The position numbers and the translations under genes were made by a program. This document shows positions 19,393-57,603 of a stretch of DNA of 62,175 nucleotides, one piece after another. Under the pieces are notes generated by a model. That model made no database searches. It saw only the letters and a program-made list of their open reading frames with translations, and had not been told where the DNA came from. Source of the DNA: a virus; IMG/VR virus record IMGVR_UViG_3300037189_001089, positions 1 through 62,175 of that record; one strand, 5' to 3'. Each line of letters starts with the position of its first letter. The first letter of the stretch is position 1.

Positions 19393-22300
19393 TTACACCT
19401 CACTCAAATATACTGTCATAGCTGGTCCAGCTGGGGATCGTTTATAGTTAATATTATAAACTACATACTTTGTAGAATCAAAGTCTACCATATCTATGTC
19501 GTCTTTGTCTTTATAATAAATATTTACAATGTCGCCTAGCTGCAAGGTTGGCATTGAGAAAATGTTTAAGCCTACAGACTTTCTTGGTCTTATGTTCTTA
19601 TCAATTATCCATCCTAGCAATGACTCAGCAGTGTCCTGGTTTTGAATGTAAATTGAGTCTAGGCTAAAGTCATTCTTACCGTAAAGGATTCTGCTTTGCT
19701 TGACCTTTTCATATTGTTCTGTAAACTTAAACGGTGATTCAACTACTGTCGATCCTGCTAGTTCTGGATCAGAGAGGTTGCCCTTCTTTTTTAAGAAATC
19801 ATCTACAGTAATAGAGCTAGTGGTATCTTGAGTAAACGTGACTCCCAAAATTCTTAAATAGTTTCCAGTCTTTTCATCTAAATTAAGTATTGTATCTGTG
19901 TTATTAAATACCAAAAATTCTGCACCATAAGAATCTGCAGTAAATCCTGAAACAGTGTAGCCCTTTAGCCTATTGGCGGTTGGAGCTATCTTGGCATATA
20001 GCGCAGGATAGGCCCTGTCATACTTAACATTAAAGTATGCGGCCTCACGCATTATAGTTCCAAACTCTTCAAAGTATAGCTCGTATGCTGGCACTGATTG
20101 TGGGTTAATTTGTGTAAGATATGTATTCTGAATAACACCACTTAACGCATATTTACTTAGTGCTTCTGATGCGTTAATCTCATTATCTTGGTCCCCAAAA
20201 ATTTTAGCAATTGGAACGTTGGTGTCAAAAACAGTATTTGTTGCATAGTTTTTACCAAGTGCGTATACGTTTTCAAACATAGCCTTTGCATTACCACGAA
20301 CAAAAAGTCCAACAGATGAATTAATCAAATCTAGTGGATCATTGTCTGTTACTCTTGCAACAATTTTTTGATTAATGTATAGATAAAAGTCTCTTCTTGT
20401 TGGGCTAACATCTACATATTCTATTGCTAGGTCATATACTGTTGGATTTTCTTCTCCAGTTAGTCTGGATTGTCCCGCAAAATTTCCATCGTCAACAAGA
20501 ACGTTTCCGTTTCCTCCCCAAAGCAAAACTGGAACTGCCTTTCTTTCAGAAAGATTTGAATTCTTTTTTACCTTATAGAACAAAATATTATTAAGAGATA
20601 TAGCGGACTCTCCAGTTTCTGAGTCTTTGTTTAATAGCTCTTCAATATTAGATGCAGTCAGTGCAGCTAGCTCAAAGTAATAGCCATTATTGGTTTCTGG
20701 ATTAACAAGATTGATTCCTGCAGAACCTCCACCAACGCTAATTGCTTTGCTTGGATCATAGGTTGGAACATTGAAATATGTCATACCACCAATAACTGTC
20801 TGTGCCCTATCGCCAGTAGCTTCAATCTTTCCAATAATTCTAAGTCTTGTACCATAGTGTTTATACGCCTTGTCTAGTTTTTTATGGACGTAAGAAACAA
20901 AGTCTCTAGAGACTGCTCCTGGTGCAAAGTCTGGTCCTGTAATCACTAGTGCAGAAGACTGAATGGTTGCAGCCGTTGTTGTTTTTAGAGATCCAACCTG
21001 TGTTTCAGTTGAGTATTTTGATGACAAGAAATTTCTAATAATTCCATTTCTTTGAGCTTTTTCTGCTACTGTTTTGCTTAGGCCTGCTATGCCAGTAATT
21101 GTTTGTGGAAATGTCTTATCTATCTCAGTGTTATAAATTAGAGAGCTATCCATCTCACATCCCTGGACATTGTCGTTAGAGGACCAGTATGGATCTAATC
21201 CAGCTGGGTGAGAAACTATAGGTGTTCCAAATTGTCCTCTACCGTGAGCCAAAACTGGGCCAGCCTTTAGTCTAACAGCATCTTCAACTATTTGACTTCC
21301 CTGAGAAACAGAGATACCACTAAATGTTTCATAGAACGGTTCTGCATAAATTCTAATTAAGCCAGTGGGATATATTTTTCCATTAAAAGGAATTTCAGAA
21401 AAATATTTTTGATATTCTAGATTGCTTGAAATCCAAACGTTTCCAGTTCCAGTCACGTTGTATTCAACAGCATCGTATTTGATAATTTCACCATTTGCGT
21501 AGAAAAATCCCTGGAATCTTGTAAGCCAATAAGCATTCTCGCCTACATCAAATATGTTATTAATAATTTGATTATTGATGGACACCTCTGGTACTGCTGT
21601 GGTTAGCGTTGTATTTAGTGGCACCGCAGAAAGCGCAAACCTTTCTTGCTTTTCGTCATTTGCACTAGTTGTTCTTTCAGAGCCAGACACTTCCCACAAA
21701 AGAGATGGATTGTAAATATAGCTTTTATCAACAAACATGCTTTGTGCTATTGTCCCACCAGTTCGTTTTATATATCTTGATGTATAGTTTATGGTTCCAG
21801 CATTGTAAACTTTTCTGTCTTTTGATGCAACGTCCTGAATGTTTGGTAGCTTGTTGCCATCCAAAGATCCATAAAGTGTTATGTCTGGTAAACGATCAAC
21901 AGACTCATCCAATAGATATTCTTTTGTCATTACGACAAAGTTATTGTATTCATCAAAGAACATTGCTGACTGTGTTGCTCTTGCAAGCTCCCCAAGAATT
22001 TGTGCTACGCTTTGTTCTGGCGGAATAAAGAAATAGGGAATTACTGGATCTGCAATATCTTCTTTTCTTTTAAATACGTAATTTGAAAATCCAACTGAAT
22101 CTAGCAGTAAACATACAGCCTGACTTAACGATGTTTCTGTTAACAAAATTCTGGGAGCTTTTAATGACTCTAAATGAAAATAAAAATCTCTTAGTGCTAT
22201 AGACGTTTCACCAGTTTTTGGGTCTCTCTGTGGGAATGTTTCTGAGTAAAGCGTTTTTAATGGTACATAGTAGTTAGAATTGTTAACTTCTTTTATTACC

Positions 22301-53370: not shown

Positions 53371-56343
53371 TTAGGCCTGAGCTTCCTTCCAACTCAACCT
53401 ACCCACTACCTCAACTGCAGAGTCAGAAAGATTTGTAACTACAATAGAAAGAACGTCTGGACCATCTGGGTAAACATTTGCATTAGCAAACAGTGTACCT
53501 CCACCCAAAACTGAGTTTCCAAGATCACGAACATCTTCTAGGTCAATAGATGAGGTTCCCTGTGAATAGAAACCACCAGTAATCTCACCACCAAGAATAA
53601 TTGTATTTTCTGCATCTGAGTAGTCTGCAATCTGAGACAGAGAAGAGTTTGTTAGTACGTTAGATCCTCTAACAACGTTTTCCCACAAAGTTGCAGACGT
53701 TGGAACACCATTAAGAATTGCAGTTACCAAAAGCTTTGAGTCTGCTGAAGAAGTAATTACACCAACTGACTTAAGTGTTAGCTGCATACGGTTAATAAGC
53801 TCACGCTGACCAAAGTTAGCTGAAATACCATTATCTACTGATGGAGCTACACGAATTGAAAACAGGGCTTTTTGGTTACCCCCAGAAAAACTAACAGGAG
53901 TAGCATTAAGATCTCCAATTAGTGGCAAAGATAGGGAAATGATCAATCCAGAAATATTTGTTACAACTGTGTTTGACTGAATGCCATCACCAGTAACCAA
54001 CATTCCAACAGTTATTCCAGCTGCACTTTGAACAGATATTTCTCTTCCCGAATAAGTATTTGCTGATGTCTCTATTGGAGATGTTAGGGCTGCTGGGACA
54101 GTTGTTGTCTTAGTCTGACCATAAGTAAATAGCAAAGACTTATCGTCATCAAATCCACCATCCATAATTACTGATGTACCCCAGTGAGAAATAGAAGCTG
54201 AGAATGTTGGATACGCAAGCTCAAGAGACACAGGGGCAGAAGTTGTTGGAGCAAAAGCCTGTGGGGTTCCTGTTGCCATTGGTGAAAATACTACGTTTGT
54301 TGGATTAGCAATAATGGCTGCAGTGTTAAACTTAATTGTTGCTCCATCAATTTGAGAAACATAAGTGTTATCTGGGAAGTTTGGATGAATTACTCTCTGT
54401 CCAACTTGTATGCCAGTTGTTGATACAACTGTTCCAATGTTGCTACCAGCAGCAATAGTCACGTTAATGGTTGCACCAGACTTTTCACGTGTTATTCCAG
54501 TAAACGATGTAGCAGTCTTGCCAGAATAGTTTACATACTCATAAACAGTGCCACCACGAATTAGCAGGGTGCCACTTGATGGAAAGCCTTCAGTACTGTC
54601 TACGTTAATGGTAGTGTCTGTAATTAAAATTGATGCAGCTGTTCCTGCTTTAGTAGTTTTTGCAAAAGTATTTGACTCATATCTAGCTGGAATGTTTCCA
54701 GAGCGCATGTATGCCTCAGCATTAACGTTGTTGTTTGCCATCTTGTGAACTGGAGTAATGTTTCCATCTACCCCACGAAGTCCCCAGCGAATATATCCTG
54801 CACCATACCAAGAGTAATCAATGTAGAACATCTGCATCTTTGTTAGATCAAGATTATACCCAGATGGGCCATTTCCATCCATTGTGTCTAGGTTCCACTC
54901 AGACTGAGGAATCTTTGTGTCTACAGTTTTTGCAACAAGGGCATACTGTGCCGTAGCTCCACGGTATGATGGAGAAATAGTCATGCTGGTGTCACTAGTA
55001 ATACCCTCAACACGATATGACTGTCCACGAATAACAATAAAGTCTCCAGGAGTTAGCTGCTTAGAAAAGTTTGTTGGGAAAGCAGCGTTTGTTTGAGAAA
55101 CTGTGTTGCTTCCATTTGTTACTGTGACCTTTCCAGAAATCTGGTAAGTAGAGCTTCGTCTTACCGCATAAAGCTTCTGACCATCAAACTCAAAGAATAC
55201 ACCGTTCTGGCTGTCAAACATTCCAATCAGGTTTGAACATCCATACCAGGTGTCAATTGTCACATAGTAATTTCCAGATGCCTTTGTCTGCAGTGGGGCT
55301 GCATCTGCCTGTACCTGGAAAATGTTATATCCCAAAATTTCAATAATGGTAAACTCGCCATTGTAGTCTGGCTCGTTTGCACCAAAGATTTTTACTGTGC
55401 TTCCAGGCTGTAGGTTGTGCTGCTCTTTTGTCTGAACAGTAATAATGTTTCCAGAAGATGTTAGTGATTCAATCGATAGGTTTGGCTTAAGAACAGTACC
55501 AGAAGAAATCTGCATACCCTTACCAGACTGATAGCGGAAGTACCTACGAGTCTGACGAATAGCCTGCTGGTTATTTGATGATGCATTAGCACTAAACAAA
55601 ACACCACCATCAAATGGTCTGTGTAGGAACTGTGACTGTGGTCTAACGTATAGCCTTACAGTTCCTGCAAGGGTTCCAGTTGGTATGTTTTTTGCATAGT
55701 AGACAAAGTTGGTAGCATTTGTAACTCTAGCTACATAGAAAGATCCGTTAGGGGCATTTGTGCTTGCTGTAATACCAGAAATAGCAATTTCGCTACCAAG
55801 CGATAGTCCATGTGGGACTGTGGTTGTCACGGTAATTGCTCTACCAGAATATGAAAGTGTTGGGGTACCACCAATTGCAGAGTTTGTGTAAGCGGTTCCA
55901 ACATACAGAGCAGTCTTATTTACATCAAAGATGTCATTAATTGTTGAGCTTATGTTAATTGATCTTGCTGTATAAGTAAATGTTGTTGCTGTAGGCACTG
56001 TCTCAATAATAAAGTTACCGTTCGCAATTGACAAGAATGTATCCTGAACGTTTACTGGAGTTCCAACAGTAAGTCCATGAGGGCTAGTTCCAGTCGTTAC
56101 AGTTACTGTTGTACTGTTTTGTGGAATATTAATTGCTGATATGTTTGGAACGGTATTTGAAGATGGATATGCAAAAGGACGATTATTTACAAGACCTAGA
56201 TTCTCCCACTTAGAAATCTGCATACCATACTCAAAGTCGGTATCTACAAGTGCCTGTGGGCTTGAATTACGAAGTTTGTTTACTGAATCAAAATACTGCT
56301 CATCTAAAAATGCTCCAGTATCTGGTCTTAAATATCCTGGCAT
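53371..56343 (-). CDS. Large tail fibre protein (990 aa) with repeated modules
   Basis: The N-terminus contains LVDTDFEYGMQISKWENLG, a signature of large structural proteins in aquatic T4-like and other phages. Three copies of a small beta module lie at about 65-130 (HGLTVGTPVNVQDTFLSIAN), 160-215 (HGLSLGSEIAISGITASTNA) and 285-340 (HNLQPGSTVKIFGANEPDYN). The centre has further strands including a KTATSFTGITRE segment. The same module occurs in the 599- and 1294-residue proteins. Probably a long fibre or baseplate-wedge-like protein. Confidence 0.8.
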   Translation of the reverse strand: MPGYLRPDTGAFLDEQYFDSVNKLRNSSPQALVDTDFEYGMQISKWENLGLVNNRPFAYPSSNTVPNISAINIPQNSTTVTVTTGTSPHGLTVGTPVNVQDTFLSIANGNFIIETVPTATTFTYTARSINISSTINDIFDVNKTALYVGTAYTNSAIGGTPTLSYSGRAITVTTTVPHGLSLGSEIAISGITASTNAPNGSFYVARVTNATNFVYYAKNIPTGTLAGTVRLYVRPQSQFLHRPFDGGVLFSANASSNNQQAIRQTRRYFRYQSGKGMQISSGTVLKPNLSIESLTSSGNIITVQTKEQHNLQPGSTVKIFGANEPDYNGEFTIIEILGYNIFQVQADAAPLQTKASGNYYVTIDTWYGCSNLIGMFDSQNGVFFEFDGQKLYAVRRSSTYQISGKVTVTNGSNTVSQTNAAFPTNFSKQLTPGDFIVIRGQSYRVEGITSDTSMTISPSYRGATAQYALVAKTVDTKIPQSEWNLDTMDGNGPSGYNLDLTKMQMFYIDYSWYGAGYIRWGLRGVDGNITPVHKMANNNVNAEAYMRSGNIPARYESNTFAKTTKAGTAASILITDTTINVDSTEGFPSSGTLLIRGGTVYEYVNYSGKTATSFTGITREKSGATINVTIAAGSNIGTVVSTTGIQVGQRVIHPNFPDNTYVSQIDGATIKFNTAAIIANPTNVVFSPMATGTPQAFAPTTSAPVSLELAYPTFSASISHWGTSVIMDGGFDDDKSLLFTYGQTKTTTVPAALTSPIETSANTYSGREISVQSAAGITVGMLVTGDGIQSNTVVTNISGLIISLSLPLIGDLNATPVSFSGGNQKALFSIRVAPSVDNGISANFGQRELINRMQLTLKSVGVITSSADSKLLVTAILNGVPTSATLWENVVRGSNVLTNSSLSQIADYSDAENTIILGGEITGGFYSQGTSSIDLEDVRDLGNSVLGGGTLFANANVYPDGPDVLSIVVTNLSDSAVEVVGRLSWKEAQA

Positions 56344-56801: not shown

Positions 56802-56830
56802 TTGAAAATAAGAAAAATTAATGCTATAAT
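56802..56830 (+). promoter_or_regulatory. Strong sigma70-type promoter for the cell-wall hydrolase
   Basis: TTGAAA (56802-56807), 17-base spacer, TATAAT (56825-56830). The likely start is near 56837. Confidence 0.85.
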
Positions 56831-56836
56831 TGATAG

Positions 56837-56861
56837 AACACTCCGTCAAAAGAGTGTTTTT
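56837..56861 (+). terminator. Hairpin plus U-run at the very 5' end of the hydrolase transcript (attenuator candidate)
   Basis: AACACTC (56837-56843) pairs with GAGTGTT (56852-56858) around an 8-base loop, followed by three more T. It has intrinsic-terminator form but starts at about +1, so it may stabilise the 5' end or act as an early attenuator. Confidence 0.5.
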
Positions 56862-57015
56862 CCGTTAAGGACGGTAATGATCAGACAGAGTAACAACAAA
56901 GTGGAAATCGTAACAATCCAAGACAAATTATTTTTGCTACAACTGTAAAAATAATGTCTGGCAAGGCAATCGTGACAGGATGCCCCAACAACATGAAGAA
57001 TAAGGAGGTGGCGAA
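56862..57015 (+). ncRNA. Structured 5' leader of the hydrolase mRNA
   Basis: A short hairpin CCGT-TAAGG-ACGG lies at 56862-56874. A long stem forms from AGAC plus ATTATTTTT (56921-56935) with AAAAATAAT plus GTCT (56947-56959) and an 11-base loop. GGCA (56960-56963) can pair with TGCC (56981-56984). The long stem spans the stop of one tiny ORF and the start of the next, as in translation-controlled leaders. I found no match to the conserved core of the c-di-AMP (ydaO) riboswitch, which controls such hydrolases in actinobacteria. Confidence 0.45.
56877..56948 (+). CDS. Tiny leader ORF 1 (23 aa)
   Basis: Encodes MIRQSNNKVEIVTIQDKLFL then LQL. AAGGA lies 5 bases before the ATG, partly in the loop of a small hairpin. 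It ends inside the long hairpin. It may be a leader peptide; it could be chance. Confidence 0.35.
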   Translation: MIRQSNNKVEIVTIQDKLFLLQL

Positions 57016-57019
57016 ATGA
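56954..57019 (+). CDS. Tiny leader ORF 2 (21 aa), overlapping the hydrolase start
   Basis: Encodes MSGKAIVTGCPNNMKNKEVA then K. It starts 5 bases after ORF 1 within the descending arm of the long hairpin, and its TGA overlaps the hydrolase ATG (ATGA), a typical coupling layout. No good ribosome site of its own is visible. Confidence 0.3.
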   Translation: MSGKAIVTGCPNNMKNKEVAK

Positions 57020-57603
57020 ACAACAAATTTGCCACGATAGCAACATTAGCACTACTTTTAACAAGCTGTGTAACTTCAGCTTCCGCTCAGGCAGAAACCC
57101 CACAAATCACTAGCCAGAGCACTTTTATGTCACATGACGGAGCTAGGCTAAGTCCGTTTATGAATAAAGTGATTACAGATAAGCAACTCAATGCTAGAAC
57201 AATGACCCTATCAAAAAATACAAAAGAACTACACTCTGCAGTTTATCTTACATCTCAGAGTGTAAATAAGACTTGGTATGTTTTTTCTGGATCTACCCCG
57301 CAAGGATGGGACTGTTCTGGGCTTGTAAAATGGACATATGCTCACCTAGGCTTTGACCTTTATCACAGTGCTACAGCACAAATGAATTCTGGATATTCTG
57401 TTAGACAGCCAAAATATGGAGACATTGTTGGCTTTAGGTATCATGGTGCATCATCCTATTATCACGTAGGAATTTATATTTCAGAAGATCGTATGCTGCA
57501 CTCTGGTGGTAAAAAAGGAGACAAGACTGAGTTTAGGTCAATCTCTGATTTTGCAGGCAGCTATTCAGCCATTAGCTATACTAGAATGGTTGAAACTAAC
57601 TAA
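57016..57603 (+). CDS. Secreted NlpC/P60 cell-wall endopeptidase
   Basis: A 195-residue protein, the only convincing larger gene on the plus strand. The N-terminus is a signal peptide; LTSC at residues 15-18 fits a lipobox, and SAQA at 23-26 is an alternative signal peptidase I site. The catalytic domain shows Cys100 in WDCSGLVKWTY, His150 in YYHVGIYI and His162 in LHSGG, the NlpC/P60 triad. Such enzymes cut peptide bonds in peptidoglycan stems. AAGGAGGTG precedes the ATG. Export makes it unlike a holin-dependent lysin; it may be a lysis protein that acts from outside, or a moron that alters the host wall (inference). Confidence 0.9.
   Translation: MNNKFATIATLALLLTSCVTSASAQAETPQITSQSTFMSHDGARLSPFMNKVITDKQLNARTMTLSKNTKELHSAVYLTSQSVNKTWYVFSGSTPQGWDCSGLVKWTYAHLGFDLYHSATAQMNSGYSVRQPKYGDIVGFRYHGASSYYHVGIYISEDRMLHSGGKKGDKTEFRSISDFAGSYSAISYTRMVETN

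Follow-up and report, generated by a model that had tools for sequence, protein, structure and literature searches.

A conserved structured leader RNA upstream of a phage NlpC/P60 endopeptidase gene, and a proposed loop–Shine-Dalgarno switch

The DNA analysed here (the window) is an entire IMG/VR virus record of 62,175 bases, with its genes nearly all on the minus strand. Because its portal protein (46% identity) and DNA polymerase III (54–57%) resemble Streptomyces phage counterparts, and because one named phage, Comrade (Stanwilliamsviridae), has a distant match to the NlpC protein described below, the virus most likely infects Actinobacteria; to suppose an aquatic host would be conjecture. 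The tail module looks mosaic, in that a 990-residue virion protein (53371–56343) is ~45–47% identical to marine Synechococcus phage proteins while portal and polymerase are Streptomyces-phage-like. A sulfotransferase-like protein (PF17784, 44583–45221) is encoded inside the tail-gene region.

Opposite these minus-strand tail genes runs a plus-strand gene for an NlpC/P60 endopeptidase (hereafter NlpC), preceded by its own promoter and a long leader (Table 1). An earlier note, made from the letters alone, had described a hydrolase opposing the fibre operon, and this reading holds: the product matches PF00877 at 4e-18 (65.7 bits against a cut-off of 23), with the catalytic residues D99-C100-S101-G102 and H150 invariant and H162 nearly so. 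The domain and catalytic motif are those of RipA, MepS/Spr and LytE, from which the phage protein differs in its small size, its lipoprotein-type signal (secreted, with a lipobox-like sequence) and its location in a tail-gene region. In three relatives (L018, L019 and L023), a lysozyme-like SLT_3 gene lies directly downstream on the same (plus) strand, forming a two-enzyme cassette. The window itself has no such lysozyme-like neighbour, and Pfam scans of most of its larger open reading frames found no other peptidoglycan hydrolase. NlpC is probably a lysis enzyme, since it shares what looks like a late promoter class and has a lysozyme neighbour in some relatives, since no other hydrolase emerged from the scans, and since it opposes the tail operon. 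That arrangement is kept in nearly every locus examined among phages with this kind of leader (type A); L183 differs.

The NlpC promoter matches 11 of 12 consensus positions and has a TG preceding its −10 element; both it and the hairpin that the earlier note had placed at about +1 are present in the sequence. The extended −10 motif TGNTATAAT occurs 11 times in the window (7119–56830) against 3.5 expected, and none of 100 shuffles reaches 11. Ten of these sites are minus-strand, mostly 3–33 nt before an open reading frame as counted from its inferred start, leaving several genes practically leaderless; the single plus-strand copy is the NlpC promoter. Together these look like a late promoter class to which the NlpC promoter would belong, and among the genes of this class in the window the 179-nt leader is unique to NlpC. 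A general +1 hairpin at late promoters was considered and rejected, the hairpin being convincing only at the NlpC promoter, with one other weak match at 19409. The idea that GTAACAAC is a genome-wide repeated site was likewise dropped, as it shows no enrichment.

The leader spans 179 nt from the promoter to the NlpC start codon, with an inferred +1 at 56837. It is differentiated into a 5′ hairpin (H1), a short upstream open reading frame (uORF) with its own ribosome site, a tentative stem around a conserved core (H2), an AT-rich hairpin holding the uORF stop (H3), a small GC hairpin (H4) and the NlpC ribosome site. The AT hairpin and the strong ribosome site had both been seen in the earlier note. 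So had two tiny reading frames, and both exist, the second (ORF2) overlapping the NlpC ATG as described; a role for ORF2 is not supported, as relatives have in its position either frames of 5–10 codons or a frame fused to the NlpC gene.

Table 1 Features of the NlpC promoter, leader and gene in the window
Feature	Position	Strand	Remarks
NlpC promoter, TTGAAA-17-TATAAT	56802–56830	+	TTGAAA at 56802; TATAAT 56825–56830; extended −10 TGCTATAAT 56822–56830
H1 hairpin, AACACTC/GAGTGTT	56837–56858	+	Starts at inferred +1; T tract follows to 56861
uORF ribosome site, AAGGA	56867–56871	+	AAGGAGGA in most relatives
uORF, 23 codons, MIRQSNNKVEIVTIQDKLFLLQL	56877–56948	+	TAA stop within H3
H2 (tentative), stem ATGAT/ATCGT round conserved core ACAGAGTAACAACAAAGT	56877–56911	+	
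H3, uORF-stop AT hairpin, GACA-TTATTTTT / AAAAATAA-TGTC	56922–56958	+	Apical loop 56936–56946
GCTAC in H3 loop, proposed anti-Shine-Dalgarno	56936–56940	+	Complementary to GTGGC 57008–57012
H4, small GC hairpin, GGCA(A)TC-GTGACAG-GATGCC	56965–56984	+	
NlpC ribosome site and conserved extension	57002–57012	+	AAGGAGG 57002–57008; AAGGAGGTGGC in window, AAGGAGGTAGC/T in relatives
Second tiny reading frame (ORF2)	56954–57019	+	Overlaps NlpC ATG; unconserved, outside the element
NlpC/P60 endopeptidase gene	57016–57603	+	PF00877

Matches to a DNA pattern of the uORF core (41 contigs) and to one of the block from H4 to the Shine-Dalgarno (SD) sequence (53 contigs), together with L167 and L188, place the leader in full or short form in at least 66 viral contigs other than the window, counting some near-duplicates. 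These searches used leader DNA only, and an NlpC/P60 gene lies downstream at every locus with a complete downstream frame. From the protein side, 30 viral relatives of NlpC were found by protein search and 80 by profile search, and about a quarter to a third of the protein relatives have the same kind of leader. Over 30 loci the mean identity is 76% for the leader, 62% for the coding sequence and 50% for the protein, and in 434 of the 435 pairs compared leader identity is above coding-sequence identity; these loci were found by their leaders, which biases the comparison, and the leaders found through the protein look alike. The core ACAGAGURACAACAANGU and the downstream GUAACNAC are near-invariant over 32 leaders, a conservation inflated by the fact that these were fetched by a pattern of that core. 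We rejected a host origin for the leader, as the uORF-core pattern has no match among 85,000 prokaryotic genomes and the leader model none in 297 genomes of one actinobacterial order (a search run without a positive control). The named phage records searched gave no match either. In the relative L018 (leader before 2857), H1 stands alone. There the 5′ arm, GCACC, could pair either with the 3′ arm of the hairpin or with GGTGC in the NlpC ribosome site, a choice that might act as a minimal switch.

Taken singly, the window leader folds unexceptionally (z −1.32). RNAalifold found no structure on a MAFFT alignment of all leaders, because H3 was misregistered; a covariance model built on eight close leaders, followed by realignment, solved this. 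The model finds 48 leaders, including L157, L167 and L220 and the short forms L183 and L215. On its alignment 94.1% of cells are paired, and the covariation score is 0.462 against 0.155 for shuffles and 0.053–0.066 for slid-partner controls, on an alignment (A4) fitted to the model structure, which favours structure. H1, H3 and H4 also appear when leaders are folded one by one. H1 changes on both sides at 7/7 pairs among relatives. In type A relatives whose H1 sequences are unrelated, the hairpin still starts at +1 to about +4 after the −10. H4 has double changes at 5/5 model pairs (97.6% of cells paired), and H3 has several, fewer than H1 and H4 (89–91% of cells paired). The tentative H2 is ATGAT/ATCGT in most leaders, with compensated or shifted stems in L157, L167/L220 and L019/L034, and does not form in L008 or L035. 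The earlier note had proposed a search for covariation in related phages: the leader recurs there and its stems carry compensatory changes, and neither refuting outcome named in that note was seen. The comparative data give good support to a class of structured cis-regulatory leader, with helices that covary and a fixed place ahead of a single gene family.

The uORF is likely translated. Every long leader checked has a uORF start codon and ribosome site, the usual length is 23–25 codons, and in most members the indels among relatives are of 3 or 6 nt. The encoded peptide is under weak amino-acid constraint (dN/dS 0.65–0.85), L167 and L220 read the conserved core in a different frame, the uORF ends before H3 in L220 and L245, and about 15 short leaders (including L183, L215 and L234) have no uORF. 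By these comparisons the peptide itself is not the conserved feature. The earlier note had suggested attenuation or translational control; the latter is the best reading of the data, whereas attenuation through a leader peptide is not supported by them.

CUAU or CUAC recurs in the H3 loop from leader to leader, and the NlpC ribosome site has a complementary GUAG directly after GGAG. GGAGG runs on into TAG in 51 of 59 NlpC genes, compared with 3 of 59 among other genes. The window is an exception with a TGG extension, and its loop GCUAC still pairs with GUGGC. Among the 8-mers between H1 and H4, it is the loop motif that makes the best anti-SD in 41 of 50 leaders, where position alone would give 2.6, a count made with a motif list chosen after the complementarity had been noticed. 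The motif is kept without the uORF (CUACUUC in short leaders, forming seven pairs with GAGGUAG) and where the uORF ends elsewhere (CUACCU/AGGUAG in L245/L256; GCUAUC after the stop in L157). Within single leaders, the complementarity is only modestly unlikely against composition-kept shuffles (p about 0.01–0.6).

We infer from these pairings a switch in which a ribosome finishing the uORF masks the anti-SD in the H3 loop. The NlpC ribosome site (GGUAG[C/U]; GGUGGC in the window) would pair with CUAU/CUAC of the loop as a loop–SD pseudoknot, which H4 would help to close and which would lower NlpC translation. A ribosome terminating at the uORF stop, ~6 nt 3′ of the anti-SD, would cover the loop and free the ribosome site, and NlpC output would then track the passage of ribosomes along the leader. 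H1 probably shields this long RNA at its 5′ end. Against this switch speak nested folding, which did not reproduce it, the modest shuffle results, the short leaders without a uORF, and L220 and L245, whose uORF stops ahead of H3. The leader probably sets the strength or timing of lysis enzyme production. That it does so as a phage-specific cis-acting RNA, controlling translation of a late lysis endopeptidase through this loop–SD and uORF mechanism, we put at slightly short of an even chance. The boldest reading, that the leader represents a new class of phage RNA whose loop–SD pseudoknot, opened by uORF-ending ribosomes, throttles or times the lysis endopeptidase, is tentative and on balance doubtful; if true, lysis output would read the translation state of the infected cell.

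The leader might instead do no switching and merely stabilise the mRNA and boost translation, H1 blocking attack on the 5′ end while a CAA-rich stretch and the strong ribosome site raise output. Such a role, unlikely in our estimation, would suit the fixed position of H1 despite its unrelated sequences and the CAA-rich core. It would also suit nested (pseudoknot-free) folding, in which predicted SD accessibility shows no clear change with a ribosome on the uORF or not (means of 0.413 and 0.411). It gives no reason why H3 and H4 covary, why the H3 loop is conserved or why the TAG extension is all but confined to NlpC genes. A sensor is improbable: here a ligand or a protein, of phage or host, would bind the conserved core and the downstream GUAACNAC and so set NlpC translation, as a riboswitch or by autogenous control. 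The core is near-invariant and is kept even where the reading frame changes (L167 and L220), which speaks for such binding, but it is missing from short leaders that retain H1, the anti-SD and H4, the leader matches nothing in Rfam, and the apparent conservation of the core owes something to how the 32 leaders were fetched. We think it highly improbable that H1 and its T tract form a promoter-proximal terminator overridden by a late antitermination factor. The T tract is indeed kept across leaders with different H1 stems, but several of its Ts extend the stem, a terminator scan finds none in the leader (H1 plus T tract being a weak candidate), and H1 occurs at no other late promoter of the window. 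Hardly credible is classical attenuation by a leader peptide, with the ribosome stalled by the nascent product of the uORF: the ribosome site, the stop inside a hairpin and the multiples-of-three indels would accommodate it, but the weak peptide constraint, shifted frames and uORF-less short leaders do not.

The proposed loop–SD switch invites comparison with erm/cat-type translational attenuators, in which a short leader ORF has its own ribosome site, the downstream site can pair with the leader, and ribosome position decides the outcome. The phage leader likewise has a leader ORF with ribosome site and start codon (except in its short forms), but it has no conserved stalling peptide and no drug link, and its proposed pairing spans a second hairpin. 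In RNA phages, translation of the lysis gene is coupled to the upstream coat frame through a stop/start overlap, UAAUG (PMC9955659). Ribosomes finishing an upstream frame would be needed in the phage leader too; here mostly 55–63 nt separate the uORF stop from the ribosome site downstream, and the uORF encodes no structural protein. The earlier note was right that leader RNAs often precede actinobacterial wall hydrolases, as in S. venezuelae, where six such genes are under ydaO/c-di-AMP leaders (PMC11481543). The ydaO/yuaA c-di-AMP riboswitch (RF00379; for example, rpfA) is thus a leader RNA before the same sort of gene, but the phage leader has a different architecture, contains a uORF and is phage-borne. 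RF00379 gives no match at its gathering score and is also absent from the list at E ≤ 10 for the window leader; more generally, no Rfam 15 family is found at the gathering score in the window leader or ten relatives, in keeping with the earlier note's remark that the RNA core was not a recognisable one. We class this RNA as a new structured cis-regulatory leader, neither ydaO nor RNA-phage-type coupling. Our literature search on phage NlpC or lysis leader RNAs found nothing on such a leader, and to our knowledge RNA leaders dedicated to lysis enzymes of large DNA phages are little described. Lysis control is central to phage biology, and this leader combines conservation, restriction to a single gene family and absence from Rfam with helices that can be tested.

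A pattern search turned up a different, unrelated leader (type B) ahead of NlpC/P60 genes in 42 contigs (L154, L162, L185 and L257–L297). It is laid out as AACTKAATA, a small hairpin and then CGACC..GTACTAAC..GGAAAGGTAGGTCG, whose stem contains the ribosome site, and its closing pairs vary together (CAGCC/GGCTG, TGACC/GGTCA). Like type A, it is found at NlpC/P60 genes only and has no Rfam match, but it is shorter, has no uORF and differs in sequence. That two unrelated leaders stand before one family of genes suggests that pressure to control this enzyme at the RNA level is a repeated one. One of the type B contigs, L154, also carries a manA RNA (RF01745, 61.5 bits) at 2146–2332, between phage tRNA genes.
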